DNA of 64,000 nucleotides from positions 4,753,834-4,817,833 of the forward strand of contig OU452213.1 in the NCBI GenBank assembly GCA_911728435.2, written 5' to 3'. Both the position numbers and the translations under genes were made by a program. This DNA comes from Apoderus coryli (lineage: Eukaryota; Arthropoda; Insecta; Coleoptera; Attelabidae). The notes below the pieces were generated by a model. The model ran no database searches and was not told the DNA's origin. It saw only the letters and a list, made by a program, of their open reading frames with translations. Below are positions 5,471 through 49,825 of the stretch, piece by piece (within the stretch, counting starts at the first letter, position 1; every line of letters begins with the position of its first letter).

Positions 5471-5805
5471 ATAGGAAATGAAACGTCTACTCCACAAAAT
5501 TCTTTATATATATGTTTTCATCATTGCATCTCAATGATGAAAACTTTTGATACAAATTAATGTCTCAGTCATAGTGTTAATTATATTTTAAAAAATTTTC
5601 CCACGAAGTAATTATATAGATGTTTAAGTCGATGGTTTTCTTGTATTAAGTCACTGATGATGAGACTTAAAGTCTTGAAACATGTATGACACTTATAGTG
5701 TTCTGAGTTGAACATATATACAAAGAATTTTGTGGAGTAGACGACATTTCATTTCCTATATATATATATATATATCACTCCTCTCTAATGGATTACTTCA
5801 ACAAT
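5471..5805 (+). mobile_element. 335-bp fold-back insertion with hammerhead motif (Penelope-type architecture)
   Basis: It is flanked by a 13-bp target duplication, aatatatttttat (5458-5470) and aatatgtttttat (5806-5818), with 12 of 13 positions identical. Unit copies 2, 3 and 4 show the empty site with a single copy of this sequence. Inverted arms of ~45 bp (5471-5518 and 5710-5758) carry cgtctactccacaaaat. A hammerhead motif lies just inside the right arm, and an unpaired tail (~5777-5805, cactcctctctaatgg) follows it. It has no coding capacity. Sense is taken as plus, from the ribozyme and the tail. It is related to the insertion at 20701-21271. Confidence 0.85.
5650..5690 (+). ncRNA. type-I hammerhead ribozyme motif (H1)
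   Basis: Helix I is GTCA/TGAC (5650-5653 with 5687-5690). The core CTGATGA is at 5654-5660 and one extra T at 5661. Helix II is built from AGACTT and AAGTCT, closed by a G-T pair. GAAA is at 5677-5680, followed by the minimal helix III ACATGT and the cleavage triplet GTA. All invariant core bases are present. The extra base after A9 is non-canonical but shared with three other motifs in this window. Confidence 0.75.
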
Positions 5806-5859
5806 AATATGTTTTTATTATAAATGGTTTGAATTGTTTTAAGTCATTACAATTATTAT

Positions 5860-5955
5860 TCGTCTCGAAGGATTTTATCTCGTCTCGTAATTCGAGACAA
5901 AATGTCCTCGAGACGAGACAAAATGGCTTCGAGACGAGACGTCTTGTGTCTCACA
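5860..5955. repeat. GAGACGAGAC/GTCTCGTCTC motif cluster, copy 1
   Basis: Multiple direct and inverted copies of gtctcgtctc, gagacgagac and related half-sites, ending gtctcacagcaactctag. The same cluster recurs at 8478-8585, 9787-9872, 11938-12045 and, outside the array, at 25845-25945. The arrangement resembles subterminal transposase-binding repeats of a DNA element; that role is an inference. Confidence 0.7.
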
Positions 5956-6117
5956 GCAACTCTAGGTATATGATATGTAGAGATAAAAAAACTAGGTATC
6001 TCTTTAAAATGTTGTAGAAAATTTAAATTAATTAAAAAGCACGTGATGTGTAAGAAATTTATTTATGAACGAAAATTTACAAAAAGAAATTCAACTATTA
6101 TTAACATAATATTTATA

Positions 6118-6611
6118 AATTAAAAGGATTTCATGTCCGTAAATATAAAAAATGAAAAATAACTTAATGGCAAAGCGGACTAAAATGCTGGTTTTACATA
6201 CACAAGGAATTTTGTTTAATTTAGCAGGGCCCCAGTCTAATTCACTCGGAACTAGACCGAGGCATGGGTCGACAGATACTGACGAATTCGTTTCGCTCTT
6301 GTTATGAGCTCGTCAGAGTACCATAGTCGTTGCCCATCTACAAATATCAGCCTGCATTTAAGCACAATAGGATACATAACAGTAGACACATGTAAACACG
6401 CATCATCTACATATACATAGTAATGCATATCCTATACCATGCAGAGGCCGAAAAAATTCAATGTATAGGTAAAACCAGTCGTATAAATAGAAATAAATAT
6501 AAATAAAAATAGTATGAACACAAAACGCTAGCAGGAGACCATTTTATCCTTTTATTTATATTTATATATTTTTATTTTATAATTCTGCCGCTTTGCCATT
6601 AAGTTATTTTT
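6118..6611 (-). mobile_element. 494-bp fold-back insertion with canonical hammerhead
   Basis: It is flanked by a perfect 13-bp duplication, cataatatttata (6105-6117 and 6612-6624). The empty site is present once in unit copy 3 and in copy 5. Inverted arms of ~27 bp (6149-6178 and 6585-6611) carry aacttaatggcaaagcgg. A ~30-bp unpaired tail sits outside the left arm (6118-6148). Taking minus as sense puts the tail 3' of the ribozyme, as in the other members. No ORF. Confidence 0.85.
6275..6322 (-). ncRNA. canonical type-I hammerhead ribozyme motif (H2)
   Basis: On the minus strand: helix I GGTACT/AGTATC (six pairs, one G-T), core CTGACGA (6310-6316), helix II GCTC-loop-GAGC with the preferred G10.1-C11.1 closing pair, GAAA (6291-6294), helix III from the self-complementary ACGAATTCGT, and cleavage triplet GTC. 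Every conserved core position is correct. This is the strongest ribozyme call in the window, and self-cleavage would be expected. Confidence 0.88.
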
Positions 6612-6684
6612 CATAATATTTATAATAAGATAAATATATTTCTAGAAAAAATATTAATTATAAATGGAAATCAATATTCAAACA

Positions 6685-7113
6685 TTAACATTTACATACA
6701 ATTTTTCTGGAACAAATACACTCAACACATTTAAATTGACACTCTAAATGATGTAGTTTGATATGAGTCTTGAGCACGATTTCTGATACCGCAGCAAAAT
6801 TACACGTGGGCACTTGACATTTCAATAATTTCAAGGTTTCTTTCACTGCTAAATCACATTTTATATCGTTCAAGTTTTCACTAGCTTTATCAAATATCCA
6901 CTGACTATATTTGGGTTGTTTCTTGATTTTAACTTGTTTCGAATCCAGTGGTTTTTTTTGAGTTTGAGACTTCATCTCGTTTTTTACCGTTGTCTTTAAT
7001 ATATTGCAGTTTCTTTCGAAACTACGTTCACTACAATTTGGAGTTTTTTCCCTTGGCTCGCTGTGACGCTTCTGCTTGAAACTGTGGATAGTTCTTAAGG
7101 ATTTTATTGTTTG
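6685..7113 (-). pseudogene. C2H2-finger ORF, copy 1 (start codon lost)
   Basis: The frame is open through the ~140 codons that the other copies encode, but the initiator reads ATA instead of ATG near 7111-7113. The next ATG gives a 96-residue product from 6975. The basic N-terminal half ends in KSQTQKKPLDSKQVK. A single classical finger follows, CQVPTCNFAAVSEIVLKTH then IKLHH (C-x4-C-x12-H-x3-H). A truncated second Cys pair, CVEC, closes the C-terminus. One finger is too little for known sequence-specific factors, so function is unknown. It may be a captured fragment of a host zinc-finger gene or an element-encoded accessory protein. Confidence 0.65.
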
Positions 7114-8035
7114 TAATTACTGTTTTACTTTTTGTATATTTATAAGACAAAATTTTTAGTTTACTATACACATTCAAGACCTGGACTCAACTAAATATAA
7201 AAATTTAGGGATTATAATAATCAGAAAAAAAAATGTACCTGCTTGTAGGTAGTTAAGTGACCTTTAACAAATATCCTATGAATATCTATTTTATATTCTA
7301 CCTAAACCCACAAAGTTTCCAACTGTTATTATTTGGCCAAACGAAACCTATCTACAGGGTGAATATTTCTAAAACGCCTGTGATTCGAATTTTCAAAATT
7401 TCGATAGCAGATAAGTTAGTGGCATCTGAGTATTATTTCCGGTTTTACACATCAACTTCATTATTTTAAATGAAACACTACGTATATTATTTAATTTTCT
7501 GATTATACAGCGTGAGTCATCGTAGATGCTGTGGCAAAACTATTCATATTTTCAAAATTCTTTCATTGTCTGATTTTGTAGACCCATTAGTACTACATTT
7601 TAAAATAGGTGCCATTTATACAGGGTGTTACATTATCCCGTAGCATGGTACGTTTTAAATTGAGCGTTTAATTATTTTCATTATAAACAATTATTTGCGA
7701 GATATTGCATTTGATTAAATTAAAAATATACATATCATTTGTTTTGAAGTCCATTGTATATTCCTAATTTCTTCTAAAACTAAATTTGTTATAATCAAAA
7801 ATAGTTTTCTTATGCGTTTCTCCTTTCTCTCTTTGATAAATAATAAAATATATTCTGATACTCTCTCATATTCATAGGTCTAAATAATTGTTAATAGATT
7901 GGTTGCTGTCTCTCACGCACATATTTATTGTTTATTTATTTATTTAATAATTTATTTGATGAAATATTTTCCCGGCAATGACTTACGATTAACTTTTCAG
8001 ATTTTCTATGTAGTACCTATATTTTAATCAAAATA

Positions 8036-8100
8036 CACTGCTCAAAAAAATTAAAGGAACACTTTTGGATAACCCTGGAATTTTTTGGCTTGCTGTTGAA
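8036..8100. repeat. Tc1-type terminal repeat remnant
   Basis: cactgctcaaaaaaattaaa followed by ggaacacttttggataaccctg is a typical Tc1-family end. It recurs at 11497-11560, inverted at 14585-14650, and next to a real Tc1 transposase scrap at 34490-34545. No transposase accompanies it here. Confidence 0.7.
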
Positions 8101-8314
8101 TGAAAATTATATATTCATAATGGATTTACATTTTATATTTGTGATTTGTTAAAAAATTAACGTGATAATGCTCATTTATTCGAGAGAAGTTTAATATTCC
8201 ACAGCAAGTACAAAAAATGAAGTGATTATGAAAATATTCACATTTAGATTTTATGTCGCGGCAGGCTTAGAGAGCGTAAAAAATTTTATTTTTATTATTA
8301 TTTATTTCCTTATG

Positions 8315-9722
8315 TTGTGCCCCACCTCTTTCAGACCTCACGAGCCGCCACTGATAATTAAGGGTACGTATTACCAGATCACGCCCTAAGATGCTGTTTT
8401 TTTTTATTAATTAAAATTTAATATATTTTTATTATAAATGGTTTAAATTGTTTTAAGTCATTACAATTTTTCGCGATGTCTCGTCTCGAAGGATTTTATC
8501 TCATCTGGTAATTCGAGACAAAATGCTCTCGAGACGAGACAAAACGGCTTCGAGACGAGACGTCTTGTGTTTCCTGTCTCACAGCAACTCTAGGTACATG
8601 ATATGTAGAGATGAAAAACTAGGTATCTCTTTAAAATGTTGTAGAAAATTTAAATTAATTAAAAAGCACGTGAGGTCTAATAAATAAAATAAAATTTCGG
8701 ACTGCTCTGTAAATACACTTTTATGAACGAAAATTTACAAAAAGAAATTCAACCATAATATTTATAATAAGATAAATATATTTCTAGAAAAAATATTAAT
8801 AATTATAAATCGAAATCAACATTAACATACAAATTTTCTGGAACAAACACACTCAACACATTTAAATTTACACTCTAAATGATGCAGTTTGATATGAGTC
8901 TTGAGCACGATTTCTGATACCGCAGCAAAATTACACGTGGGCACTTGACATTTTAATAATTTCAAGTTTTCTTTCACTGCTAAATCACATTTCATATCGT
9001 TCACGTTTTCACTAGTTTTGCCAAATATCCACTGACTATATTTGGGTTGTTTCTTGATTTTAACTTGTTTCGATGCCAGTGGGTTTTTTTGAGTTTGACT
9101 CTTCATCTTGTTTTTTACCGTTGTCTTTAATATATTGCAGTTTCTTTCGAAACTACGTTCACTACATTTTAGAGTTTTTTTTCTTTGGCTCGCTGTGACA
9201 GTTCTGCTTTAAACTATGCATAGTTCTTAAGGATTTCATTGTTTGCAATTACTGTTTTACTTTTTGTATATTTATAAAACAAAATTTTTAGTTTACTATA
9301 CACATTCAAGACCTGGACTCAACTAAATATAAAAATTTAGGGATTATAATAATCAGAAAATAAAATGTACCTGCTTGTAGGTAGTTAAGTGACCTTTAAC
9401 AAATATCCTATGCATATCTATTTTATTGTCTACCTAAAGCCACAAAGTTTCCAACTGTTATTATTTGGCCAAACGAAACCTATCTACAGGATGTCCCATG
9501 GTGAATATTTCTAAAACGACTGCGATTTGAATTTTCAAAATTTCGATAGCAGATAGCAAATAAGTTAGTGGCATCTGAGTATTATTTCCGGTTTTACACA
9601 TCAACTTCGTTATTTTAAATGAAACACTACGTATATTATTTAATTTTCTGATTATACAGCGTGAGTCACCGTAGGCGCTGTCGCAAAACTACTCAGATTT
9701 TCAAAATTCTTTCAACGTCTGA
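8315..9722. repeat. composite repeat unit, copy 2
   Basis: Same order as copy 1 but without the two ribozyme insertions. It ends abruptly inside the cagggtg-bounded segment (caacgtctgattt at ~9712-9724), where it is fused to the AT-rich start of copy 3. Copy 3 therefore lacks its hAT-type terminus. The junction suggests unequal exchange between copies. Confidence 0.8.
8822..9239 (-). pseudogene. C2H2-finger ORF, copy 2 (frameshifted)
   Basis: ATG at 9237-9239 is followed by the usual KSLRT start. One extra T in the run at 9171-9178 (eight instead of seven) shifts the frame into a stop. From 9106 the downstream 94 codons are intact, with the finger CQVPTCNFAAVSEIVLKTH. The C-terminus is two residues shorter than in copies 4 and 5 (ends FVC). 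It is the only copy with a clear internal frameshift in the N-terminal half. Confidence 0.7.
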
Positions 9723-11778
9723 TTTAAAATTTAATATATTTTTATTATAAATGGTTTGAATTGTTTGAAGTCATTACAATTTTTCGAGATGTCTCGTCTC
9801 GAAGGATTTTATCTCGTCTCGTAATTCGAGACAAAACGGCTTCGAGACGGGACGTCTTGTGTCTCTTGTCTCACAGCAACTCTAGCTACATGATATGTAG
9901 AGATAAAAAAACTAGGTATCTCTTTAAAATGTTGTAGAAAATTTAAATTAATTAAAAAGCACGTGAGGTGTAAGAAATAAAACTTCGGACTGCTCTGTAC
10001 ATACACTTTTATGAACGAAAATTTACAAAAAGAAATTCAACTATTATTAACATAATATTTATAATAAGATAAATATATTTCTAGAAAAAATATTAATAAT
10101 TATGAATTGAAATCAATATTCAAACATTAACATTCACATACAATTTTTCTGGAAAAACACACTCAACACATTTAAATTTACACTCTAAATGATGCAGTTT
10201 GATATGAGTCTTGAGCACGATTTCTGATACCGCAGCAAAATTACACATGGGCACTTGACATTTCAATAATTTCAAGTTTTCTTTCACTACTAAATCACAT
10301 TTCATATCGTTCAAGTTTTCACTAGCTTTACCAAATATCCACTGACTATATTTGGGTTGTTTCGTGATTTTAACTTGTTTCGATTCCAGTGGTTTTTTTT
10401 GAGTTTGACTCTTCATCTTGTTTTTTACCGTTGTCTTTAATATATTGCAGTTTCTTTCGAAACTACGTTCACTACATTTTAGAGTTTTTTTCCTTGGATC
10501 GCTGTGACGTTTCTGCTTTAAACAATGGATCGTTCTTAAGGATTTCATTGTTTGCAATTACTGTTTTACTTTTTGTATATTTATAAGAGAAAATTTTTAG
10601 TTTACTATACACATTCAAGACCTGGACTCAACTAAATATAAAAATTTAGGGATTATAATAATCAGAAAATAAAATTTACCTGCTTGTAGGTAGTTAAGTG
10701 ACCTTTAACAAATATCCTATGCATATATATTTTATTGTCTACCTAAAGCCACAAAGTTTCCAACTGTTATTATTTGGCCAAACGAAACCTATCTACAGGG
10801 TGTCCCATGGTGAATATTTCTAAAACGCCTGTGATTCGAATTTTCAAAATTTCGATAGCAGATAGCAAATAAGTTAGTGGCATCTGAGTATTATTTCCGG
10901 GTTTACACATCAAGTTCGTTATTTTACATGAAACACTACGTATATTATTTAATTTTCTTATTATACAGCGTGAGTCACCGTAGACGCTGTGGCAAAACTA
11001 TTCAGATTTTCAAAATTCTTTCAACGTCTGATTTTATAGAACCATTAGAACTACATTTTAAAATAGGTGCCATTTATACAGGGTGTTACATTATCCCGTA
11101 GCATGATACGTTTAAAATTGAGCGTTTAATTATTTTCATTATAAACAATTATTTTCGAGATATTGCATTTGATTAAGTTAAAAATATACATATCATTTAT
11201 TTTGAAGTCCATTGTATATTCCTAATTTCTTCTAAAACTAAATTTGTTATAATCAAAAATAGTTTTCTTATGCGTTTCTCCTTTCTCTCTTTGAGAAATA
11301 ATAAAATATATTCTGCTACTCTCTCATATTCATAGGTCTAAATAATTGTTAATAGATTGGTTGCTGTCTCTCACGCACTTATTTATTGTTTATTTATTTA
11401 TTTAATAATTTATTTGATGAAATATTTTCCCGGCAATGACTTACGATTAACTTTTCAGATTTTCTATGTAGTACCTATATTTTAATCAAAATACACTGCT
11501 CAAAAAAATTAAAGGAACACTTTTGGATAACCCTGTAATTTTTTGGCTTGCTGTTATTAACAAATGAAAATTATATATTCATAATGGATTTACATTTTAT
11601 TTTTGTGATTTGTTAAAAAATAAACGTGATTATGCTCATTTATTCGAGATAAGTTTAATATTCCACAGCAAGTACAAAAAATAAAGTGATTATGAAAATA
11701 TTCACATTTAGTTTTTATGACGCGGCAGGCTTAGAGAGCGTAAAATTTTTTATTTTTATTATTATTTATTTCCTTATA
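9723..11778. repeat. composite repeat unit, copy 3
   Basis: Starts at the tttaatatatttttattataa segment, missing the hAT-type end. It carries the motif cluster (9787-9872), the finger ORF (10120-10548), both cagggtg motifs (10797 and 11078) and a Tc1-type end (~11497). It supplies the empty target sites for the insertions in copies 1 and 5. Confidence 0.8.
10120..10548 (-). CDS. C2H2-finger protein, copy 3
   Basis: ATG at 10546-10548 in context aaacaatg gives a 142-residue frame. It is rich in Lys/Arg to residue ~75 (RHSDPRKKTLKCSERSFE and similar). The finger follows, with C-x4-C (CQVPMC; Thr to Met relative to other copies) and the KTHIKLHH histidines. After CVEC the C-terminus reads FPEKLYVNVNV instead of CSRKFVCEC, caused by a one-base change in the T/A run near 10148. 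No signal peptide or membrane segment. Upstream, a pyrimidine-poor cag precedes the ATG by ~15 bases and could be a splice acceptor. Product and function are unknown. Confidence 0.55.
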   Translation of the reverse strand: MKSLRTIHCLKQKRHSDPRKKTLKCSERSFERNCNILKTTVKNKMKSQTQKKPLESKQVKITKQPKYSQWIFGKASENLNDMKCDLVVKENLKLLKCQVPMCNFAAVSEIVLKTHIKLHHLECKFKCVECVFPEKLYVNVNV

Positions 11779-13217
11779 TTGTGCCCCACCTCTTTCAGAC
11801 CTCATGAGCCGCCACTGATAATTAAGGGTACGTATTACCAGATCACGCCCTAAGATGCTGTCTTTTTTATTAATTAAAATTTAATATATTTTTATTATAA
11901 ATGGTTTAAATTGTTTTAAGTAATTACAATTTTTCGAGGTGTCTCGTCTCGAAGAATTTCATCTCATCTCGTAATTCGAGACAAAATGCTCTCGAGACGA
12001 GACAAAACGGCTTCGAGACGAGACGAGACGTCTTGTCTTTCCTGTCTCACAGCAACTCTAGGTATATGATATGTAGAGATAAAAAAACTAGGTATCTCTT
12101 TAAAATGTTGTAGAAAATTTAAATTAATTAAAAAGCACGTGAGGTCTAATAAATAAAATAAAATTTCGGACTGCTCTGTAAATACACTTTTATGAACGAA
12201 AATTTACAAAAAGAAATTCAACCATAATATTTATAATAAGATAAATATATTTCTAGAAAAAATATGAATAATTATAAATCGAAATCAACATTCAAACATT
12301 AACATTCACATACAAATTTCCTGGAACAAATACACTCAACACATTTAAATTGACACTCTAAATGATGTAGTTTGATATGAGTCTTGAGCACGATTTCTGA
12401 TACCGCAGCAAAATTACACGTGGGCACTTGACATTTCACTAATTTCAAGGTTTCTTTCACTGCTAAATCACATTTCATATCGTTCAAGTTTTCACTAGCT
12501 TTACCAAATATCCACTGACTATATTTGGGTTGTTTCTTGATTTTAACTTGTTTCGATGCCAGTGGGTTTTTTTGAGTTTGACTCTTCATCTTGTTTTTTA
12601 CCGTTGTCTTTAATATATTGCAGTTTCTTTCGAAACTACGTTCACTACATTTTAGAGTTTTTTTCTTTGCCTCGCTGTGACAGTTCTGCTTTAAACTATG
12701 CATAGTTCTTAAGGATTTCATTGTTTGCAATTACTGTTTTACTTTTTGTATATTTATAAAACAAAATTTTTAGTTTACTATACACATTCAAGACCTGGAC
12801 TCAACTAAATATAAAAATTTAGGGATTATAATAATCAGAAAATAAAATGTACCTGCTTGTAGGTAGTTAAGTGACCTTTAACAAATATCCTATGCATATC
12901 TATTTTATTGTCTACCTAAAGCCACAAAGTTTCCAACTGTTATTATTTGGCCAAACGAAACCTATCTACAGGATGTCCCATGGTGAATATTTCTAAAACG
13001 CCTGTGATTCGAATTTTCAAAATTTCGATAGCAGATAAGTTAGTGGCATCTGAGTATTATTTCCGGTTTTACACATCAACTTCGTGATTTTAAATAAAAC
13101 ACTACGTATATTATTTAATTTTCTGATTATACAGCGTGAGTCACCGTAGACGCTGTGGCAAAACTATGCAGATTTTCAAAATTCTTTCAACGTCTGATTT
13201 TGTAGACCCATTAGTAG
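11779..13217. repeat. composite repeat unit, copy 4
   Basis: Complete from the hAT-type end (ending cgccactg at ~11817) through the motif cluster and the finger ORF. It is cut at 13217 inside the cagggtg segment (gacccattagta), where a pogo-like element begins after a TA. Confidence 0.8.
12299..12721 (-). CDS. C2H2-finger protein, copy 4
   Basis: ATG at 12719-12721 gives an intact 140-residue frame ending CSRKFVCEC. It has a basic N-terminal region, one C2H2 finger (CQVPTCNFAAVSEIVLKTH/IKLHH) at residues ~96-122, and a closing Cys cluster (CVEC, then CEC). That cluster could be half of a second finger or a short Cys knuckle. With copy 5 it is the best-preserved version. It differs from copy 5 by scattered substitutions (for example VKCQ for LKCQ, CQFKC for CKFKC). 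Same context as the other copies. Function not recognised. Confidence 0.6.
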   Translation of the reverse strand: MKSLRTMHSLKQNCHSEAKKKTLKCSERSFERNCNILKTTVKNKMKSQTQKNPLASKQVKIKKQPKYSQWIFGKASENLNDMKCDLAVKETLKLVKCQVPTCNFAAVSEIVLKTHIKLHHLECQFKCVECICSRKFVCEC

Positions 13218-14480
13218 GGTAAACCACCCAGTTATTGGACACTTAAGGAATTTTCTACGCACATATAACTGTCACGTGAGTAAACATCTCTAACAAGAGA
13301 CTAGGTCTGTGATTCTGGTATCAAATGAAGCGTATGTTTATATGACATGTATATCAACATTTAATTTGCTTGTTATTTTGACGAATTTTCGATAAAACAT
13401 GAATATATCGTTTTGTTTGGAACATCTTAGTAATTGGACATTTTTCTTAATTATTTTCTTAATTATTGAATTAAGAAAAATGTCCAATTACTAAGATTTT
13501 CCAAAAAAAACGATATATTCTCTCTGACCAATGTCAGCACAAAATTTAATTATTGGACATCAAATAGAAGTGCTTTTAAGAACTAATTTTATAAATATTA
13601 GTTAAATATTATTTTATTCTGGCAGTTCAAACAATAAAGAACCACAGTTTCTTGTAAAATATTTTATTGGGTACTACAAATTTAATACCTAATACACATA
13701 TTTGAAAGGTTCATTTTTATACATAGCAAAAAGGTCATCTCTCTTCAGTAGCACCACTAGTATATGTGTTTTCCATTTGTGTGAGTTTCGTTATTTTTAA
13801 TGTTGTCTTTAATTTATTCTTCCGGCGAATCAATGTTTGTAATTGAGCTTTAGTGAATTTTGACGTTAATATTCTTACTGTTATACACATTAATACTGAA
13901 GTATATTTCTTGACTGACAGTTCCTTCACATTCAGACTGACCATCGAACGCAGCTCTTCTTTTCACTCTCCTACTTGTAACAAATGTGACTCAAAAATAA
14001 ATCTCCATCAGCCTCATCAGGAATGTATTTTTTGGAGTGCAACGAGTGTGGAAATTGTTGTGGCATGTAATTCAAGTTCACTGTTTAGTAATTGCAATCA
14101 CTGCACTTTGATATATAAAACATGGTATCTTTTCCTTTCGTCGCTTTTCTGCGTTTTTTGTTCCTATCGCAATCTCTTTTTCTTGTTCCCTCTAGCTTTT
14201 TCTGTTCATCCTCTAATTATAGGGCACATTTTTTTTCGAAATATTCCAGATACTTTTTTAAGTTATCAACAATGAGATACGTTCTATGTGACGTTTATTT
14301 TTCCTCTCAAGCGTTGGTGGATTTGATAAGTATGCCGAAATATTTTTGACTTCTGTACTACCCATACTGCTGCTTTCTAATTACGTTATCGACCTGAAAT
14401 TCAGCTCTAAACCTAAATTTATAAACTAAACAATTATTGAGCCTAATATAACCCAAATGTGATCACATACGGTGTACACT
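13218..14480 (-). mobile_element. pogo/Tigger-like DNA element, decayed
   Basis: Begins immediately after a TA at 13216-13217 with gggtaaaccacccagttatt, and the word ttattggaca/taattggaca is repeated at its left end. The minus strand at ~13940-14360 encodes a broken lysine/glutamate-rich tail: LERKNKRHIERISFVITSKK then a KYLEYFEKKCA-type stretch and a KKRRK run. This resembles the C-terminus of pogo-type transposases that follows the DDE domain. The catalytic domain is absent. The right end could not be located. Confidence 0.5.
13401..13520. repeat. 51-bp inverted repeat around an 18-bp loop
   Basis: Arm 13401-13451 pairs with 13470-13520, with about two mismatches and a small length change. 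Both arms contain taattggaca, the same word as the element's terminus, so this may be a secondary terminal-repeat arrangement inside the pogo-like element. The transcript would form a strong hairpin. Confidence 0.75.
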
Positions 14481-14539
14481 ATTACACATTTGACACACTC
14501 TGTATATATTACCTGTAAATTGGTACATTTATTTGTTCA
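14481..14539 (+). repeat. 59-bp direct repeat flanking the inverted unit (left)
   Basis: Matches 20626-20684 with two mismatches (attacacatttgacacactc versus attacatatttggcacactc, then identical through acctgtaaattggtac). The pair brackets unit copy 5 together with its Penelope insertion. Confidence 0.85.
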
Positions 14540-15568
14540 TAAAACAATTTATTAAATTCCTTTTGTTAATTTTCATTTGTTAATAACAGCAATCCAAAAA
14601 ATTACAGGGTTATCCAAAAGTGTTCCTTTAATTTTTATGAGCAGTGTATTTTGATTAAAATATACTACATAGAAAATCTGAAAAGTTAATTGTAAGTCAG
14701 TGCCGGGAAAATATTTCATCAAATAAATTATTAAATAAATAAATAAACAATAAATAAGTGCGTGAGAGACAGCAACCAATCTATTAACAATTATTTAGAC
14801 CTATGAATATGAGAGAGTAGCAGAATATATTTTATTATTTCTCAAAGAGAGAAATGAGAAACGCATAAGAAAACTATTTTTGATTATAACAAATTTAGTT
14901 TTAGAAGAAATTAGGAATATACAGTGGACTTCAAAACAAATGATATGAATATTTTTAATTTTATCAAATGCAATATCTCGAAAATAATTGTTTATAATGA
15001 AAATAATTAAACGCTCAATTTTAAACGTAACATGCTACGGGATAATGTAACACCCTATTTTAAAATGTAGTACTAATGGGTCTACAAAATCGGACGTTGA
15101 AAGAATTTTGAAAATCTGACTAGTTTTGGCACAGCGTCTACGATGACTCACGCTGTATAATCAGAAAATTAAATAATATACGTAGTGTTTTATTTAAAAT
15201 AACGAAGTTGATGTGTAAAACCGGAAATAATACTCAGATGCCACTAACTTATCTGCTATCGAAATTTTGAAAATTCGAATCACAGGCGTTTTAGAAATAT
15301 TCACCATGGGACACCCTGTAGATAGGTTTCGTTTGGCCAAATAATAACAGTTGGAAACTTTGTGGCTGTAGGTAGACAATAAAATAGATATACATAGGAT
15401 ATTATTTGTTAAAGGTTACTTAACTACCTACAAGCAGGTACATTTTATTAACTGAATATTATAATCCCTAAATTTATATATTTAGTTGAGTCCAGGTCTT
15501 GAATGTGTATAGTAAACTAAAAATTTGCTCTTATAAATATACAAAAAGTAAAACAGTAATTACAAACA

Positions 15569-15991
15569 ATGAAATCCTTAAGAACTATCCACAGTTTAAA
15601 GCTGAAGCGTCACAGCGAGCCAAGGAAAAAAACTCTAAATTGTAGTGAACGTAGTTTCGAAAGAAACTGCAATATATTAAAGACAACGGTAAAAAACGGG
15701 ATGAAGAGTCAAACTCAAAAAAAACCACTGGATTCGAAACAAGTTAAAATCAAGAAACAACCCAAATATAGTCAGTGGATATTTGGTAAAGCTAGTGAAC
15801 ACTTGAACGATATGAAATGTGATTTAGCAGTGAAAGAAAACTTGAAATTATTGAAATGTCAAGTGCCCACGTGTAATTTTGCTGCGGTATCAGAAATCGC
15901 GCTCAAGACTCATATCAAACTGCATCATTTAGAGTGTAAATTTAAATGTGTTGAGTGTGTTTGTTCCAGAAAATTTGTATGTGAGTGTTAA
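15569..15991 (+). CDS. C2H2-finger protein, copy 5
   Basis: Intact 140-residue frame with ATG in context aaacaatg. The basic N-terminus contains HSEPRKKTLNCSERSFE. The finger is CQVPTCNFAAVSEIALKTH then IKLHH at residues ~96-122, and the end is CSRKFVCEC. Compared with copy 4 the differences are point changes only (for example EIAL for EIVL, ASEH for ASEN). It stands in the opposite orientation to the array. The PLE inserted less than 100 bp downstream of its stop. Role unknown. Confidence 0.6.
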   Translation: MKSLRTIHSLKLKRHSEPRKKTLNCSERSFERNCNILKTTVKNGMKSQTQKKPLDSKQVKIKKQPKYSQWIFGKASEHLNDMKCDLAVKENLKLLKCQVPTCNFAAVSEIALKTHIKLHHLECKFKCVECVCSRKFVCEC

Positions 15992-16175
15992 TGTTTGTAT
16001 ATTGATTTCGATTTATAATTAATATTTTTTCTAGAAATATATTTATCTTATTATAAATATTATGTTAATAATAGTATAACAGTTGAAAATCGTGTCCTCA
16101 TATAATCAAATATGTAGAAATTTTGAATTATTGGGTTATAGGACAATACTTAAGAAAAAACTCTTATTTCATAAA

Positions 16176-16219
16176 AATGCGACGTTTCGTAGTTCTTTAT
16201 TACTACTTCTTCAAGCACT
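16176..16219 (-). ncRNA. hammerhead-like motif in the Penelope arm (H3)
   Basis: Exact inverse of the motif at 20415-20458. Minus strand: helix I AGTGC/GCATT, core TTGAAGA (C3 replaced by T), one extra A, helix II GTAGT/ACTAC, GAAA, minimal helix III ACGT, cleavage triplet GTC. It lies on the strand carrying the 3' tail, so it is the sense copy. Confidence 0.6.
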
Positions 16220-16660
16220 GAAACGGTGTACAATAAGTATTAATAAACTAACAAAAAATTTTTTAATAATCATATCACCTTTTAAATCATCCAGAGTTCA
16301 TTAGAAGTATAATATGGTGTTCAAACATAACAATCAATAATACCATTGCAAAACATAATCAGTCAAAACAGAAATATAGACTATCACTATGTGTTAAAAT
16401 TTAACAATCTAAAAATTACTCAGTTGCATTGTCAATATTCATCAAAATACAACATTCTAACCATCTATCTTTATAGTCTTCAAACAACAAAAAACGAATA
16501 ACAAAACACTAAAAACGAGAAACCCACTGACATTCTTTTCAATATTCACATATATATATATATTCACTGTATGTATGCATGCATATACAGGAGGAAACAT
16601 CAAATATATCATTCGTACATTAGAATTTATAAGTTTAACTAGAATATGACAGGACTAATA

Positions 16661-18082
16661 TTAAGTATCATTCTTCTTTCTATGTTTATATAAATCAATG
16701 AGATGTAGGTATATGTTACTTAAGCCCTGTGTATCCGATCTAAGGTTGACAGTATCATTCATTTGTATGTGAATCATTTCCAATATATTTCTTTTTTGAT
16801 AATTTGATTCCTTATCCAAAATGACAGCCTCATCAAAGTTAAAATTATGACCAGTATCAAAATGGTGTTGTGCAAGTGCTGTTTTTTCCGGTTTTTGCAT
16901 GTTGATGTTTCTGCAATCAGATCTATGTTGACCAATCCTCTTTTTAAAATACTGTCTAGTTTGACCTATGTATTTCCTTTTACATTCACATTCAATGCCA
17001 TATACTAATTGAGACTGCTTAGAGGTAGGAGTGGTATCTTTAAGTTGTGTGAAAAGAGAATATCCCACTGTTGACATGTTATAAAAAGCAAATTTAACAT
17101 CAGTAGCCTTAAAACAATTTTCTATTTTATGTGAAAGACCATATATATAAGGAAACTTAAAATATTTACATTGTTGTTTTTTTTGTTGGACATTTGTTGT
17201 TATGTTTAATTTTTTCTTATTATATGCAACAATACAACGATTCACAAATGATCTAGGGTAACTATTTATTTTAAGAATGTTTTTTATTGTATCTACATTA
17301 CTATCATGGTATGTAGGATGGCTCAAATGTTCAGCTCTATACAAAAGACTGTGTATTGTAGCGACTTTCTGTTTGGTTGTGTGATGTGAATAAAAATTAA
17401 GAATTCTGTCCGAATTCATAGGTTTTCTATACCAATTTGGTTTAAGGGTACCATCATCATATCTTTGTATTTGTACATCCAAAAACGGAATTGTGCCATC
17501 CGATTCAATTTCAAGTGTAAATTGTAAATTTTCGTGGTAATTGTTGAAAAATGTCAAAATGTTTTCACATTGGTTCTTAGGAATAGCCATGATAGTATCA
17601 TCTACATAAATTTTCAGAAACTCTATTGTGAACGGCAAAGATTTTAATACAGAAGTCACAAGATCATTCATCACGATGTTGGCTAAAGTTGGACTCACTG
17701 GGTTTCCCATTGCTGTTCCGTCAAGCTGTAAATATATTACGTCCTTAAACGTGAAATAACTTGAATCAAAACTAAAGGAAACAAGGTCAAGCAAAGTTCG
17801 CTTAGGTATGTCAATGTATGCTGATATAAAAACCCAGTTTTTCTTAATTATATCTATTACCAGTTTCTTAGGTATATTAGTGAACAATGATATTACATCA
17901 ATGGACACTAAAACATAATCAGGAGGGAGAATGACATCCTGGAGGCACTTAACAAATTCAAACGAGTTTCTGACATTATATATAAAAGTAGAAGTCACAG
18001 GTGACAAAATTTCATGTAACAAGTGTGATATACTGTAGGTTGGAGAATTGATACAGCTCACAATAGGTCGCAGCGCTAATTG
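16661..18082 (-). CDS. Penelope-like RT-endonuclease, 5'-truncated copy
   Basis: Open for 474 codons from the arm edge. It lacks the DKG region and begins at LALRPIVSC. It retains RT motif A (SIDVISLFTNIP), motif B (DGTAMGNPVSPTLANI), motif C (IYVDDT) and the C-terminal GIY-YIG nuclease (VYGIECECKRKYIGQT, with R and H of KKRIGQH). It is identical in sequence to the plus-strand copy over the shared part. As it lacks the N-terminal third it is unlikely to be active alone. The frame reads on into the opposite copy as far as 18127, an artefact of the junction. Confidence 0.9.
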   Translation of the reverse strand, partial: QLALRPIVSCINSPTYSISHLLHEILSPVTSTFIYNVRNSFEFVKCLQDVILPPDYVLVSIDVISLFTNIPKKLVIDIIKKNWVFISAYIDIPKRTLLDLVSFSFDSSYFTFKDVIYLQLDGTAMGNPVSPTLANIVMNDLVTSVLKSLPFTIEFLKIYVDDTIMAIPKNQCENILTFFNNYHENLQFTLEIESDGTIPFLDVQIQRYDDGTLKPNWYRKPMNSDRILNFYSHHTTKQKVATIHSLLYRAEHLSHPTYHDSNVDTIKNILKINSYPRSFVNRCIVAYNKKKLNITTNVQQKKQQCKYFKFPYIYGLSHKIENCFKATDVKFAFYNMSTVGYSLFTQLKDTTPTSKQSQLVYGIECECKRKYIGQTRQYFKKRIGQHRSDCRNINMQKPEKTALAQHHFDTGHNFNFDEAVILDKESNYQKRNILEMIHIQMNDTVNLRSDTQGLSNIYLHLIDLYKHRKKNDT

Positions 18083-18083
18083 G

Positions 18084-19973
18084 CCTATTCCTAATATAAT
18101 AATGGATTTAGAATATTGTATTGCCAATACTATTGTGAATACCTATGATGGTAATCTCCTTAGATTGAGAGCCACAAATATAATTAATAATTTTTATAAT
18201 CACGAAAAAGTTGTCAATGACAGAGACAAATACATAAATAAATGTTTCACTAAGACAAAACATTTTCTTAAAAGCAACCCAGACATAATTATATCACGAT
18301 CAGATAAAGGCAATTCCACAGTTGTGATGAATAGAGGAGAATATGAGCAGGAAATGATTAGGATGTTATCTGATCAATCTCTTTATCAAATTTCTCCTAA
18401 AGATCCAACTACTAAGTTTCAGAATAGGGCTAATCAATTGATTGATAGTTTGAAAGTACACCTACAACTAACAAAGCAACAGGAAACTAAATTAAAAATA
18501 CATAATTCAATCCCACCTAAAATCTATGGACTTAGAAAGACACACAAAGACCAATTAGCGCTGCGACCTATTGTGAGCTGTATCAATTCTCCAACCTACA
18601 GTATATCACACTTGTTACATGAAATTTTGTCACCTGTGACTTCTACTTTTATATATAATGTCAGAAACTCGTTTGAATTTGTTAAGTGCCTCCAGGATGT
18701 CATTCTCCCTCCTGATTATGTTTTAGTGTCCATTGATGTAATATCATTGTTCACTAATATACCTAAGAAACTGGTAATAGATATAATTAAGAAAAACTGG
18801 GTTTTTATATCAGCATACATTGACATACCTAAGCGAACTTTGCTTGACCTTGTTTCCTTTAGTTTTGATTCAAGTTATTTCACGTTTAAGGACGTAATAT
18901 ATTTACAGCTTGACGGAACAGCAATGGGAAACCCAGTGAGTCCAACTTTAGCCAACATCGTGATGAATGATCTTGTGACTTCTGTATTAAAATCTTTGCC
19001 GTTCACAATAGAGTTTCTGAAAATTTATGTAGATGATACTATCATGGCTATTCCTAAGAACCAATGTGAAAACATTTTGACATTTTTCAACAATTACCAC
19101 GAAAATTTACAATTTACACTTGAAATTGAATCGGATGGCACAATTCCGTTTTTGGATGTACAAATACAAAGATATGATGATGGTACCCTTAAACCAAATT
19201 GGTATAGAAAACCTATGAATTCGGACAGAATTCTTAATTTTTATTCACATCACACAACCAAACAGAAAGTCGCTACAATACACAGTCTTTTGTATAGAGC
19301 TGAACATTTGAGCCATCCTACATACCATGATAGTAATGTAGATACAATAAAAAACATTCTTAAAATAAATAGTTACCCTAGATCATTTGTGAATCGTTGT
19401 ATTGTTGCATATAATAAGAAAAAATTAAACATAACAACAAATGTCCAACAAAAAAAACAACAATGTAAATATTTTAAGTTTCCTTATATATATGGTCTTT
19501 CACATAAAATAGAAAATTGTTTTAAGGCTACTGATGTTAAATTTGCTTTTTATAACATGTCAACAGTGGGATATTCTCTTTTCACACAACTTAAAGATAC
19601 CACTCCTACCTCTAAGCAGTCTCAATTAGTATATGGCATTGAATGTGAATGTAAAAGGAAATACATAGGTCAAACTAGACAGTATTTTAAAAAGAGGATT
19701 GGTCAACATAGATCTGATTGCAGAAACATCAACATGCAAAAACCGGAAAAAACAGCACTTGCACAACACCATTTTGATACTGGTCATAATTTTAACTTTG
19801 ATGAGGCTGTCATTTTGGATAAGGAATCAAATTATCAAAAAAGAAATATATTGGAAATGATTCACATACAAATGAATGATACTGTCAACCTTAGATCGGA
19901 TACACAGGGCTTAAGTAACATATACCTACATCTCATTGATTTATATAAACATAGAAAGAAGAATGATACTTAA
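18084..19973 (+). CDS. Penelope-like reverse transcriptase with GIY-YIG endonuclease
   Basis: Copies element RNA into DNA and nicks the target. The frame is open for ~629 codons from the junction; the first possible ATG is at ~18103. Domains in order: DKG motif (SDKGNSTVV) about 75 residues in, then PPKIYGLRKTHK (RT1), motif A with Asp (VSIDVISLFTNIP), motif B (AMGNPVSPTLAN), motif C YVDD, and a thumb with PFLDVQIQRYDDGTL. The GIY-YIG nuclease follows (LVYGIECECKRKYIGQT, catalytic Arg/His in KKRIGQH), with CxC and HHFDTGH residues that may bind zinc. Known full-length proteins are ~800 residues or more, so ~150-200 N-terminal residues are missing. No stop or frameshift. The catalytic residues are intact. 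Confidence 0.95.
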   Translation, partial: PIPNIIMDLEYCIANTIVNTYDGNLLRLRATNIINNFYNHEKVVNDRDKYINKCFTKTKHFLKSNPDIIISRSDKGNSTVVMNRGEYEQEMIRMLSDQSLYQISPKDPTTKFQNRANQLIDSLKVHLQLTKQQETKLKIHNSIPPKIYGLRKTHKDQLALRPIVSCINSPTYSISHLLHEILSPVTSTFIYNVRNSFEFVKCLQDVILPPDYVLVSIDVISLFTNIPKKLVIDIIKKNWVFISAYIDIPKRTLLDLVSFSFDSSYFTFKDVIYLQLDGTAMGNPVSPTLANIVMNDLVTSVLKSLPFTIEFLKIYVDDTIMAIPKNQCENILTFFNNYHENLQFTLEIESDGTIPFLDVQIQRYDDGTLKPNWYRKPMNSDRILNFYSHHTTKQKVATIHSLLYRAEHLSHPTYHDSNVDTIKNILKINSYPRSFVNRCIVAYNKKKLNITTNVQQKKQQCKYFKFPYIYGLSHKIENCFKATDVKFAFYNMSTVGYSLFTQLKDTTPTSKQSQLVYGIECECKRKYIGQTRQYFKKRIGQHRSDCRNINMQKPEKTALAQHHFDTGHNFNFDEAVILDKESNYQKRNILEMIHIQMNDTVNLRSDTQGLSNIYLHLIDLYKHRKKNDT

Positions 19974-20414
19974 TATTAGTCCTGTCATATTCTAGTTAAA
20001 CTTATAAATTCTAATGTACGAATGATATATTTGATGTTTCCTCCTGTATATGCATGCATACATACAGTGAATATATATATATATGTGAATATTGAAAAGA
20101 ATGTCAGTGGGTTTCTCGTTTTTAGTGTTTTGTTATTCGTTTTTTGTTGTTTGAAGACTATAAAGATAGATGGTTAAAATGTTGTATTTTGATGAATATT
20201 GACAATGCAACTGAGTAATTTTTAGATTGTTAAATTTTAACACATAGTGATAGTCTATATTTCTGTTTTGACTGATTATGTTTTGCAATGGTATTATTGA
20301 TTGTTATGTTTGAACACCATATTATACTTCTAATGAACTCTGGATGATTTAAAAGGTGATATGATTATTAAAAAATTTTTTGTTAGTTTATTAATACTTA
20401 TTGTACACCGTTTC

Positions 20415-20458
20415 AGTGCTTGAAGAAGTAGTAATAAAGAACTACGAAACGTCGCATT
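20415..20458 (+). ncRNA. hammerhead-like motif in the Penelope arm (H4)
   Basis: Same motif as H3, on the plus strand, ~440 bp downstream of the RT stop and ~65 bp from the element edge. Core TTGAAGA at 20420-20426, extra A at 20427, helix II GTAGT (20428-20432) with ACTAC (20441-20445), GAAA at 20446-20449, then CGTC and GCATT. The C3-to-T change would probably weaken cleavage. The position matches the ribozyme known from terminal repeats of Penelope-like elements. Confidence 0.6.
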
Positions 20459-20625
20459 TTTATGAAATAAGAGTTTTTTCTTAAGTATTGTCCTATAACC
20501 CAATAATTCAAAATTTCTACATAGTTAATAATAGTTGAATCTCTTTTTGTAAATTTTCGTTCATAAAAGTGTATGTACAGAGCAGTCCGAAATTTTATTT
20601 CTTACACCTCACGTGCTTTTTAATT

Positions 20626-20684
20626 ATTACATATTTGGCACACTCTGTATATATTACCTGTAAATTGGTACATTTATTTGTTCA
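20626..20684 (+). repeat. 59-bp direct repeat flanking the inverted unit (right)
   Basis: Partner of 14481-14539 with two mismatches. It is immediately followed by the target duplication of the next fold-back element. Confidence 0.85.
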
Positions 20685-20762
20685 AGCTGTAACATTTATT
20701 GATTGAATAAAACACGTCTACTCCACAAAATGATTTATATATATATGTTGAAATCTCCTACT

Positions 20763-20806
20763 TAGCCAGACATGTTTCGGATCATATGTCCATCATCAGT
20801 GGCTTA
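20763..20806 (-). ncRNA. type-I hammerhead ribozyme motif (H5)
   Basis: Minus strand: helix I AGCCA/TGGCT (five pairs), core CTGATGA, extra T, helix II built from GGACA and TGATCC with one bulged A, GAAA, helix III ACATGT, cleavage triplet GTC. All core bases are intact. It lies in the inverted (antisense) arm. Confidence 0.72.
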
Positions 20807-21125
20807 AAGAACCTTGGTTTACAATGTGAATATGAGGAATTTGTTTATGTGTGATTTAAACATCTATACACATCTGTAATTAATTGCTTATTTGAAATGT
20901 ACTTAACTACATAATTGTGTAAAATATTACCATTTTGTCGAAACAAGTTATATGTTAGTGGAATTAAACATGAAAAATTGTGATAAAATGAAATAAAAAT
21001 TAAATAAAAATTGGTTCATACTTAGAGTTTTAAATCTGTTTTTTCTTTTTTCCGCTCTTAATTTTCATAATTATTGATTTTGAAAACTAGGTGTTGTCCA
21101 TAACTTGAGCAGGTACAAATCTTTA

Positions 21126-21166
21126 AGCCACTGATGATGGTCATATGATCCAAAACATGTCTGGCT
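21126..21166 (+). ncRNA. hammerhead motif with G12 lost (H6)
   Basis: Sense-arm counterpart of H5: AGCCA, CTGATGA (21131-21137), helix II, then CAAAAC where CGAAAC is expected, ACATGT, C, TGGCT. G12 is a catalytic residue, so this copy should be inactive. A compensating base in helix II (GGTCA for GGACA) changes the stem. Confidence 0.7.
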
Positions 21167-21289
21167 AAGTAGGAGATTTCAACATATATATATAAATCAT
21201 TTTGTGGAGTAGACGTGTTTTATTCAATCAATACCAATCACTCCTCGATACATGGATTACTTCAGAAGATTCTGTAACATTTATTTAAT

Positions 21290-22690: not shown

Positions 22691-22699
22691 TCAACTGTT

Positions 22700-23600: not shown

Positions 23601-23613
23601 TTTAATTTTACTT

Positions 23614-23833
23614 TAGTATTGTATTTTTCTTGAACCTTGTTACAATTTTGAAATAAATTTACAATTACAATTTTGAATGAATTGTATGAATTGAAATAAT
23701 ATTTGAATTACAATTTTGAAATAAAAATATTTCAAAAAGAAAAAAAGGAAAATCGCGTATAAAATAGAACCTTAAATCCCAAGAAAAGAAAATAATTGTA
23801 ACAAAGTTCAAGAAAAACACAATACTAAAATAC
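23614..23833. repeat. inverted repeat, ~40-bp arms
   Basis: tagtattgtatttttcttga (23621-23640 region) pairs with tcaagaaaaacacaatacta near 23808-23828. The intervening sequence is full of ttacaattttgaa-type repeats. Small fold-back DNA of unknown family. Confidence 0.6.
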
Positions 23834-23879
23834 ATAGACAGCTTGCGTGTTACTTAAATTTTCATGTCCTTAGAACGGC

Positions 23880-24092
23880 TTACTTTGGGGTTTTCCATTC
23901 ACACTTGACTTACGCCATCGTGCTTTGGGGTGGTTCTTCGCACGCCTTGAGAATTTTCAGATTGCAAAAGAGGACGGTCAGAATACTGGTTGGCGTTGGG
24001 CCACTTGACCATTGCAAGCCGCATTTTGTAAACCACGGTATAATTTCATTGCTGTCTGTTTTTATCTATCATACCTTATTGGAGATCCATTC
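23880..24092 (+). pseudogene. LINE ORF2 C-terminal fragment
   Basis: Reads HLTYAIVLWGGSSHALRIF, LQKRTVRILVGVG and DHCKPHFVNHGIISLLSVFI. This is the same conserved post-RT region as at 22070-22690, in a different sequence family. It is interrupted at ~24098 by the GTATCGATAC-rich element. Confidence 0.75.
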
Positions 24093-24097
24093 AATTC

Positions 24098-24240
24098 GGG
24101 TAGGGATACGGTATCGCTTCAAAAGTATCGATACTCGATACCAAGTAAAGTATCGCATTTCGGTATCGATACACTACTTGGTATCGAAGGTCAAGTATCG
24201 ATACTTCAAAGTATCGATACTCGATACTAATAAAAAAAAG
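24098..24240. repeat. GTATCGATAC-rich terminal cluster of a DNA element
   Basis: After tagggatacggtatcg there are about eight copies of gtatcgatac/ctcgatac half-sites in both orientations within 140 bp. Such clusters are typical of subterminal regions of hAT-type elements with TAGGG-like ends. Only this end is recognisable. Confidence 0.55.
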
Positions 24241-24460
24241 TACCTATATTTAAAAATTAAAAATTAACGCGATTTTTTTTAAGTCGAACTAGGTTTACAA
24301 TGTTACAAATAAAATATTAGAAATAAAATATATATTATAATTGCAGTTGTTAATATTATTTTTAATTTTGGAGGTTGCAGTTGCAGCGAAAAATTAATTT
24401 AAACATTGCTCCGCTAGGGGGCTCAGGCGTCATGATAATTAAAATTTATACATAAAACAA

Positions 24461-24600
24461 TAATTTAATTTATCAGTTTTACGTTTAAATATTTAACTCC
24501 GCGCCATAGAAGAAGAAAACATATGTAATAATTTTGGCCTAGATTTTAGAAATCTAGATAGGAAGAGTTAAATATTTAACTGATAAATTAAATTATTTAT
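24461..24600. repeat. inverted repeat, ~35-bp arms
   Basis: aataatttaatttatcagtt at ~24461 pairs with aactgataaattaaattatt ending at ~24597. gttaaatatttaactc-like text adjoins in both arms. Probably a fold-back element; no ends or duplication found. Confidence 0.6.
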
Positions 24601-25020
24601 AGTACTCGGTCGGCTGATTTGTTGTTGTTGTGTTTGTGTAGCTACGCCACTGTTGCTTCGTATACTTGTTACAAACACGACAAATTGATATGATTTGTAA
24701 TAATAATAATGACGATCAATATTTTTCTCTTAATTATTTTTTTGGCAAATCGTGTTGTTTAATTTTCATTAGTTGTTGAAAACAACAACATTAAATTAAT
24801 AAATGAAAAAGTGTGTATAAAAATATTCCATGATATTTGGATGCGACGCAATTACATAAAATTTCGATAACCTTGGTGGATATTGTTTTTAAATATTTTT
24901 TGAAAAGTACCTACCAATACAACAGATATTTATTATTAATTAAGAATTTCGTAAATGTTATCTTATTATTTTATTAGCTCTGCATACAATACACTGTGAG
25001 GCAAAAAGTCACCTACAAGT
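24600..25020. other. no recognisable feature
   Basis: AT-rich. The stretch is followed by a short repeat (ctgttgccctgaaggcacgg) also seen near 2312. Confidence 0.5.
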
Positions 25021-25086
25021 TAAATATAAATAAACTGTTGCCCTGAAGGCACGGATAGCTCTCCATATTTAAGTGTTATTGATGAT

Positions 25087-25418
25087 ATAGTGAGAAAATA
25101 ATGGGTTTTAGGTCTTTTGTAAAAGAAACTAATGTATTTTAAATACCATCCAGATTAGACGACTAGTGATATTGTATTGTTGTTATGCTTTTATGTTATT
25201 TTATTTATACATAAGTATACATACATGTGTTCTGTTTGTGCGTGTCTCGTTTATATTAAAAAATCTTACCGACAAAAAGAAACAATGATTTGTGCCCTGA
25301 GGATGACAATAAAGATTGTCGAAACGTTGGCTTAAAATACATTAGTTTCTTTTACAAAAGACCTAAAACCCATTATTTTCTCACTATAACAATAATAGAG
25401 GTCGTAAAAATTGAAAAT
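25087..25418 (+). mobile_element. 332-bp fold-back insertion with hammerhead motif
   Basis: Flanked by a perfect 13-bp duplication tgttattgatgat (25074-25086 and 25419-25431). Inverted arms are exactly 55 bp (25088-25142 and 25332-25386) and contain gtgagaaaataatgggtttt. A hammerhead abuts the inner edge of the right arm. A 32-bp unpaired tail (25387-25418) follows. It sits in a dispersed repeat also seen at ~2306-2355 (cggatagctctccatattta). Confidence 0.87.
25294..25331 (+). ncRNA. hammerhead ribozyme motif (H7)
   Basis: Helix I GCC/GGC (three pairs), core CTGAGGA (25297-25303; N7 = G), extra T, helix II GACAAT/ATTGTC (six perfect pairs around AAAG), GAAA (25321-25324), CGTT and then GGC. 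The cleavage triplet is GTT, a weak but permitted H17. Helix I is short. Confidence 0.65.
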
Positions 25419-25431
25419 TGTTATTGATGAT

Positions 25432-45230: not shown

Positions 45231-45372
45231 ACTACGCTTCAGTACGGACCACTGAATTTGACAAAAAAGGCCTGATATCAGTTCGAAGCATAACCAAAAG
45301 TTTTTTTCGGCAACCCTCTGGGATGTACCCACTTCCCGGACGCTTTTTCTTTGAGAAAATAGCATTTTCCGG

Positions 45373-49789: not shown

Positions 49790-49825
49790 ATTATAAGTGG
49801 AACTTCGTAGAAACATGGCTGTCCT

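Follow-up and report, generated by a model that had tools for sequence, protein, structure and literature searches.

Penelope-like elements (PLEs) that carry an endonuclease (EN+ PLEs), such as Penelope/Poseidon and PAc from Anolis, combine a reverse transcriptase (RT) with a GIY-YIG endonuclease, and are described with pseudo-long terminal repeats (pLTRs) in tandem, inverted partial copies, a tail of ~30-40 bp, AT-rich targets and a minimal hammerhead (PMC11167929; PMC3846280). In vitro, PAc cuts and extends both strands, with reverse transcription beginning at either of two internal sites that lie side by side (Frangieh et al. 2024, PMC11167929). The PAc tail is the sequence between these two start sites and is called optional, being present in a fraction of copies; later integration steps were left unvalidated in that study (PMC11167929). 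For the PLEs of Adineta vaga, a 2013 paper reported inverted pLTRs, one of which may carry a 31-bp tail, target site duplications (TSDs) of 8-10 bp and mobilisation in trans; the origin of the head-to-head forms was left undecided, with self-priming preferred (PMC3846280). PLEs have further been proposed as likely helpers of metazoan retrozymes, with no conserved repeat motif pointing to the helper (PMC7761336), and metazoan retrozymes may depend on PLEs (PMC8969392). Our comparisons rest on passages of the papers cited. The 64,000-nucleotide stretch of Apoderus coryli contig OU452213.1 analysed here (the window) holds five hammerhead-bearing insertions, E1 to E5, which as a group resemble EN+ PLEs in the respects named at the outset, and whose outer ends follow a rule that may point to the way in which PLEs integrate.

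The five insertions are confirmed, with their target duplications lying outside them (Table 1). A reading made from the letters alone (the sequence-only reading) had given them duplications of 13, 13, 12, 14 and 13 bp and unpaired tails of ~30-45 bp, and both hold up on measurement. It had also described inverted arms. These are present, but they are not terminal inverted repeats (TIRs): each pair consists of two head-to-head copies of one unit, variably truncated. Both outer ends are 3' ends of the unit, at either site T, which includes the tail, or site B, which is 31-46 bp shorter, and the inner ends vary. The tail had further been placed 3' of the hammerhead on the same strand. As both outer ends are unit 3' ends, a tail always follows a hammerhead-bearing unit, and the strand is uninformative for E3 and E4, which have the motif in both arms; in E4 it is the tail-less arm, on the minus strand, that holds the intact copy, and the plus copy beside the tail is decayed. 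What counts is that the tail is found at one end alone. The window holds uninterrupted targets of E1 (8313-8559 and 11779-12022), E2 (9905-10185) and E3 (9949-10173), each with a single copy of the TSD sequence, because these three insertions sit in a tandem array. For E4 no empty site turned up, and for E5 none beyond its own flank.

Copies from the rest of the genome (428 Mb, 129 contigs) show that two-ended insertions almost always pair one T end with one B end. We read the sequences of 88 loci (28 of the E4 family and 30 each of the E2 and E5 families), of which L063 and L065 were set aside as second views of L043 and L054. The remaining 86 comprised 46 T/B loci, including the window's own E2 (L009), E4 and E5 (L039), no T/T locus and one B/B locus (L076, diverged); the others had T with a 5' end (19), B with a 5' end (9), T with an internal 3' end (8) or another arrangement (3). 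In the E1 family, 39 clusters gave 12 T/B, 0 T/T, 2 B/B and 25 others (5 with an internal 3' end, and 20 in which a 5' end is paired with either B (12) or T (8)). This count uses 75 of the 128 rows of high-scoring segment pairs (HSPs), omitting the short-arm rows (query 1-56), C7:20298365 and the left arm of E1 itself, and tallies E1 as one-ended though its sequence reads T/B. For the coding E3 family, 46 HSP rows were grouped by hand, with no script, into 23 groups: 13 T/B including E3, 0 T/T, 1 B/B and 9 single-ended. Taken together, the loci of the five families with two resolved 3' ends number 71 T/B, 0 T/T and 4 B/B (n=75), and under independent 50:50 choice of ends the probability of four or fewer exceptions is 3e-17.

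The T/B rule is therefore near-strict among the two-ended copies of all five families, whether coding or not, and extends to the tandem, retrozyme-like E2 family. This adds to the published picture, as the tail called optional in EN+ PLEs occurs exactly once in 71/75 two-ended copies here. Loss of T/T copies during assembly is an unlikely cause of their absence, since T/T differs from T/B by just ~35 extra paired bases. A rule that the tail sits on the longer copy was tried and dropped, the tail being on the longer copy in 25/39 and on the shorter in 14/39. Small size, inverted ends and flanking duplications would also be found in miniature inverted-repeat transposable elements (MITEs), DNA transposons with TIRs, yet a search for fixed inverted ends failed: copies differ in arm length (the B arm of the E2 family ranges from 27 to 1112 bp), the tail stands at one end alone, one-armed and tandem copies occur, and the TSDs vary around 12-14 bp. 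An origin as MITE-like transposons can hardly be right.

It is quite likely that all five are Penelope-type retro-insertions made by dual-strand priming at sites T and B. A PLE protein of the E3 kind would bind the 3' region of an RNA, whether from its own element or from a non-coding parasite with a hammerhead, and would cut AT-rich DNA on both strands, with ~12-14 bp between the cuts. One cut strand would prime reverse transcription at site T of the RNA and the other at the adjacent internal site B, 31-46 nt upstream, and both cDNAs would extend towards the RNA 5' end, halt at variable points and be joined head to head. Priming at T and B followed by joining would leave a pair of inverted arms with a single tail, flanked by a duplication of 12-14 bp. 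In vivo, both arms would presumably be copied by dual-strand priming from the same or a sibling RNA. The two adjacent start sites of PAc match sites T and B (PMC11167929). On a slight balance of probability we would go further, and propose that PLE integration is obligately asymmetric, with a two-protomer complex using T and B, and that it also integrates retrozyme-like RNAs such as E2. If true, this asymmetric machinery would answer the question of what mobilises animal retrozymes. The one-tail rule itself would offer a genomic answer to how PLEs integrate that can be checked in any PLE-bearing genome, and a signature by which to recognise non-coding RNAs mobilised by PLEs, which might otherwise be annotated as MITEs or satellites with no relation to one another. 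The titles, abstract openings and passages searched held neither the one-tail rule nor a PLE signature in retrozyme-like repeats, which is no proof of absence.

Head-to-head arms could also come about if the first cDNA, or an antisense template, primed itself, as put forward for the A. vaga PLEs (PMC3846280). The near-perfect arms of E3 (99.7% identity over 1986 bp) and the similarity of arms within a locus fit the copying of one arm from the other; the arms of E4 are 98% identical. Among loci with an arm overlap of at least 60 bp, the arm-to-arm distance is below the mean distance to the arms of other loci in 33/38, the exceptions being L056, L061, L015, L022 and L078. This similarity fits one source RNA, or later conversion between the arms. 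A copied-back arm, however, needs no precise internal end, yet 71/75 loci are T/B and none is T/T. The duplication abuts the ends in 39/46 sequenced T/B loci, and the truncation points of the two arms are often unequal, which also argues against copying back. The T/B rule thus favours dual-strand, dual-site priming, and self-priming seems to us unlikely.

Several observations weigh against dual-site priming as a general account. The copies were taken from the best-scoring 40 candidates per search, not all of which were fetched, and are no random sample; the E1 and E3 family counts come from HSP end points rather than sequence. Of the 86 sequenced loci, 39 lack two resolved 3' ends (a 5' end accompanies T in 19 and B in 9, and in 11 a 3' end is internal), and no convincing second arm came to light when the 29 loci with a 5' end were searched for a hidden one. 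One-sided insertions may therefore be real, the B-only ones included (9, plus 12 in the E1 family), and we restrict the one-tail claim to two-ended insertions. Four B/B loci exist, and the sequence of one, L100, shows no tail and no TSD. The nearest arm from another locus is often as close as the partner arm. Among the ten PLE 3' regions compared, no family was identified whose terminal sequence matches that of E1/E4, E2 or E5. Finally, start sites were not seen to differ between the strands for PAc in vitro (PMC11167929), a result that does not bear out the T/B asymmetry.

The duplications were called at 10 bp or more, with one mismatch permitted from 11 bp up. On this basis 39/46 sequenced T/B loci have a TSD, of 12-14 bp in 32/39 (12 bp in 16, 13 in 7, 14 in 9, 15 in 2, 10 in 2, and 11, 18 and 25 bp in one each, the last in a repetitive target). 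The duplication lengths, which the sequence-only reading had offered as a check, are mostly 12-14 bp where found, not TA or 8 bp, and do not refute that reading; no duplication of 9 bp or more was found in 7/46. When left and right flanks were paired across different loci, matches of at least 9 bp arose in 44/897 and of 12-14 bp in 10/897. The lengths differ from the 8-10 bp of the A. vaga cases (PMC3846280). With T set on the right, base -2 of the left (B-side) TSD boundary is A in 32/39 loci against a background of 35%, at a position chosen after looking. As this A is seen in all three families (E4 6/6, E2 15/18, E5 11/15), the three non-coding families have, post hoc, a common target preference.

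To judge from its sequence E3 is an EN+ PLE, and the earlier claim that one of the five insertions codes for a Penelope-type RT/GIY-YIG protein is supported. The RT domain matches RVT_1 at 1.2e-06 (28.9 bits, slightly under the 29.6 cut-off) and its YVDD motif is invariant across nine aligned sequences. The endonuclease of E3 has no Pfam match of its own, and Pfam and PDB sequence searches by themselves fail to identify it; homologues carry PF00078 and some also PF01541, and Y514, Y524, G526, R535, H539, E588 and N599 are invariant between E3 and eight aligned homologues. The best named relatives are insect proteins (Neodiprion, Coccinella; 47-48% identity). In near-identical copies of E3 elsewhere in the genome the open frame reaches up to 854 aa, and PLEs with 40-58% identity are abundant (at least 71 matches, with 70 scored of 4114 candidates). 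E3 has the tandem/inverted pLTR structure with tail and TSD, and large relatives have inner full pLTRs on both strands, with outer ends of type T on one side and B on the other.

E1, E2, E4 and E5 are members of non-coding hammerhead families with many genome copies: at least 110 HSPs for E4 (best 40 of 1353 candidates), 115 for E2 (best 40 of 1712) and 128 for E5 (best 40 of 178). E1 and E4 have terminal sequence in common, giving the three groups E1/E4, E2 and E5. No frame of 150 aa or more overlaps E1, E4 or E5, which are short (332-571 bp) and carry the PLE insertion signature without coding capacity. The sequence-only reading took these four for non-autonomous Penelope-type elements of at least three families, and we agree, because they have the integration features tested in common with the coding PLE: partial copies joined head to head, a tail at one end, a hammerhead upstream of the ends, and TSDs that mostly measure 12-14 bp. 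The T/B rule would tie these families to PLE-type integration, and mobilisation in trans by a PLE protein is indicated, to judge from these sequence features.

Another retroelement, a long interspersed nuclear element (LINE), might instead have mobilised the small hammerhead RNAs, their likeness to PLEs being convergence. It is in keeping with this that no terminal sequence in common with a PLE has been established and that the window has other reverse-transcriptase frames. Against it, two start sites, one tail and overlapping head-to-head arms are also seen in the coding E3 family (13 T/B), whereas twin priming by LINEs gives non-overlapping segments. The hammerheads of E1, E4 and E5, though not that of E2, also have a bulge after A9 that is common to all ten PLE 3' regions. 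We regard mobilisation by a LINE as very unlikely, and Penelope-type integration as the better account of the small families.

Motif comparisons between the small families and PLE 3' ends gave p<0.05 in 3/32 cases, the lowest 0.007 (E2 with L097), which is not significant after 32 comparisons; the same holds for the best among E1, E4 and E5, a 17-nt motif of E5 and E3 (p 0.017). At L099, where two E1 ends lie 2.5 kb from each other, the intervening sequence was examined for a coding partner of E1, and no PLE frame was seen there. This locus (C19:5965500-5968400) has E1-type ends around 2.6 kb with a non-PLE frame of 197 aa, one tail, a 16-bp TSD and a 36-bp offset; it may represent captured DNA or one insertion nested in another, and is left out of the T/B tally. 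Around site B, a generic stem of 5 bp was dropped as common by chance (null 0.92-0.99). GC-rich stems at site B, one for each of the five families (E3 GTCCT, M2 GTCCG, M5 GACCT, M4 and E1 GGAGT), have a null of 0.02-0.08 per family and were selected after looking, and are a lead only.

E2 resembles metazoan non-LTR (non-long terminal repeat) retrozymes in its tandem non-coding monomers, type I hammerhead and TSD of more than 4 bp, and differs from them in its unit of 537 bp, against a stated 150-450 bp (PMC7229834). Head-to-head arms with a tail are seen in E2 and are not described for retrozymes in the passages of that paper. Arms of this family can exceed one unit, as in L029, where two minus units and a piece are followed by a piece and one plus unit, as expected of a multimeric or circular RNA. 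In the E5 family the 5' end of the unit is nearly fixed, with eight T-end single copies beginning at unit positions 1-11, the unit start having itself been defined from one of the eight. Some of these single copies have 12-13 bp TSDs (L044, L060).

The hammerheads were found with a descriptor requiring, in order, stem I (3 bp or more), a [C/U]UGAN[G/A]A core with 3-8 pairing, at most one bulge, stem II (3 bp or more), GAAA and stem III (2 bp or more). Its design followed inspection of the motifs themselves, and the stem II minimum is what lets E4 in. Six matches on the two window strands all fall within the insertions (E1 plus, E2 minus, E3 plus and minus, E4 minus, E5 plus), against ~0.6 expected per 128 kb from 7 matches in 1.451 Mb of Markov-shuffled PLE 3' regions (ten regions). 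Rfam found no hammerhead in the window at the gathering threshold, and at a relaxed threshold E2 alone (HH9, cut-off 52 bits). A covariance model built from 12 motifs, E2 excluded, ranks E5, both E3 arms, the E4 minus arm and E1 highest, by construction; a stray match at the left edge of E1 (22.2 bits) exceeds the E4 plus copy, and E2 scores 10.7. The two E4 scores therefore mark the tail-side hammerhead as decayed and the tail-less arm as having the intact one. Single-sequence folds beat shuffles clearly for E2 and mildly for the remaining motifs (z -0.71 to -1.79).

We fetched ten 3' regions downstream of PLE frames (L089-L098), picked from the 71 matches, and the motif occurs in 10/10, at positions 420-665 of the fetched stretch. 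L094 and L097 miss the strict descriptor, and a relaxed scan adds one L090 match with 3-8 unpaired. Over 13 motifs (the five insertions and eight PLE copies, L096 and L098 being omitted as repeats of the L095 motif) 149/153 cells hold standard pairs, against a mean of 96.8 and a maximum of 114 in 5000 shuffles, although part of this high score follows from motif selection. Position 3-8 is C-G in 8, U-A in 4 (the PLE hammerheads L089, L091, L092 and L093) and U-G in 1 (E3), forms that read as natural covariation of the core pair. A single extra A or U follows A9 in every motif but that of E2. Motif and covariation together argue for a hammerhead in the E3 pLTR. A short stem III and an association with PLEs are features also of the small hammerhead variants that cleave in dimeric form (Luense et al. 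2017; Cervera and de la Pena 2014), as judged from their description in PMC7761336.

Table 1. Features of the five insertions (window positions) and of two large E3 relatives (genome positions)
Feature	Position	Strand	Remarks
E1, non-coding insertion	5471-5805	+	B-end arm from 5471, T end 5805
E1 TSD	5458-5470 (left), 5806-5818 (right)		12/13 match
E1 arms	5459-5516 / 5711-5771		
E1 tail, site B to site T	5760-5805	+	46 bp
E1 hammerhead motif	5648-5690	+	descriptor; 30.3 bits with covariance model R1, which includes E1's sequence
E2, copy of 537-bp tandem retrozyme-like family (M2)	6118-6611	-	T end 6118, B end 6611
E2 TSD	6105-6117 / 6612-6624		13/13
E2 tail	6118-6153	-	36 bp
E2 type I hammerhead, putative	6261-6332	-	Rfam HH9 20.1 bits, under cut-off; descriptor; fold z -3.09
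E3, coding PLE, head-to-head pair of 5'-truncated copies	16076-20523		T end 16076, B end 20523
E3 TSD	16064-16075 / 20524-20535		12/12
E3 tail	16076-16110	-	35 bp
E3 hammerhead, T-end arm	16175-16220	-	descriptor, covariance model
E3 hammerhead, B-end arm	20414-20459	+	descriptor, covariance model
PLE open frame, RT and GIY-YIG endonuclease, without N-terminus	18039-19973	+	
Second, shorter PLE open frame, tail-bearing arm	16661-18142	-	
E4, non-coding	20701-21271		B end 20701 (long minus copy), T end 21271 (short plus copy)
E4 TSD	20687-20700 / 21272-21285		14/14
E4 tail	21230-21271	+	42 bp
E4 intact hammerhead, tail-less arm	20765-20805	-	30.9 bits; descriptor match
E4 decayed hammerhead, tail-bearing arm	21125-21165	+	19.8 bits; no descriptor match; CAAAAC for GAAAC
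E5, non-coding	25087-25418	+	B end 25087, T end 25418
E5 TSD	25074-25086 / 25419-25431		13/13
E5 tail	25388-25418	+	31 bp
E5 hammerhead	25291-25334	+	47 bits; descriptor match
Large E3 relatives with inner full pLTRs	C1:42344771-42354376; C11:17312954-17321987		

The array that contains E1 to E3 (5352-16064) is satellite-like, with repeats ~92-95% identical (e.g. 6612-9725 versus 10051-13200) and an inverted portion at 14567-16064; the left flank of E4 resembles part of it. The E2 and E3 targets are adjoining positions of one array unit, with duplications that overlap by one base; at the E3 site 9 bp are missing from two more of the array copies, those near 8.7 and 12.2 kb. It is possible that this site is an insertion hot spot or a scar.

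Elsewhere in the window, long reverse transcriptase frames of 959 and 690 aa lie at 49811-53394 and 35498-37570, the first preceded by a frame of 237 aa; we take them to be LINE-type. Two overlapping frames in different reading frames at 164-1032 on the minus strand presumably belong with Tc/mariner-like transposases, which they resemble. A match resembling the histone 3' untranslated region stem-loop (33209-33255, plus strand) scores 25.6 bits, under the 34-bit cut-off. Near-perfect palindromes outside the insertions lie at 13401-13520, 42938-42999 and 45366-45413, the first two scoring weakly with microRNA precursor models.

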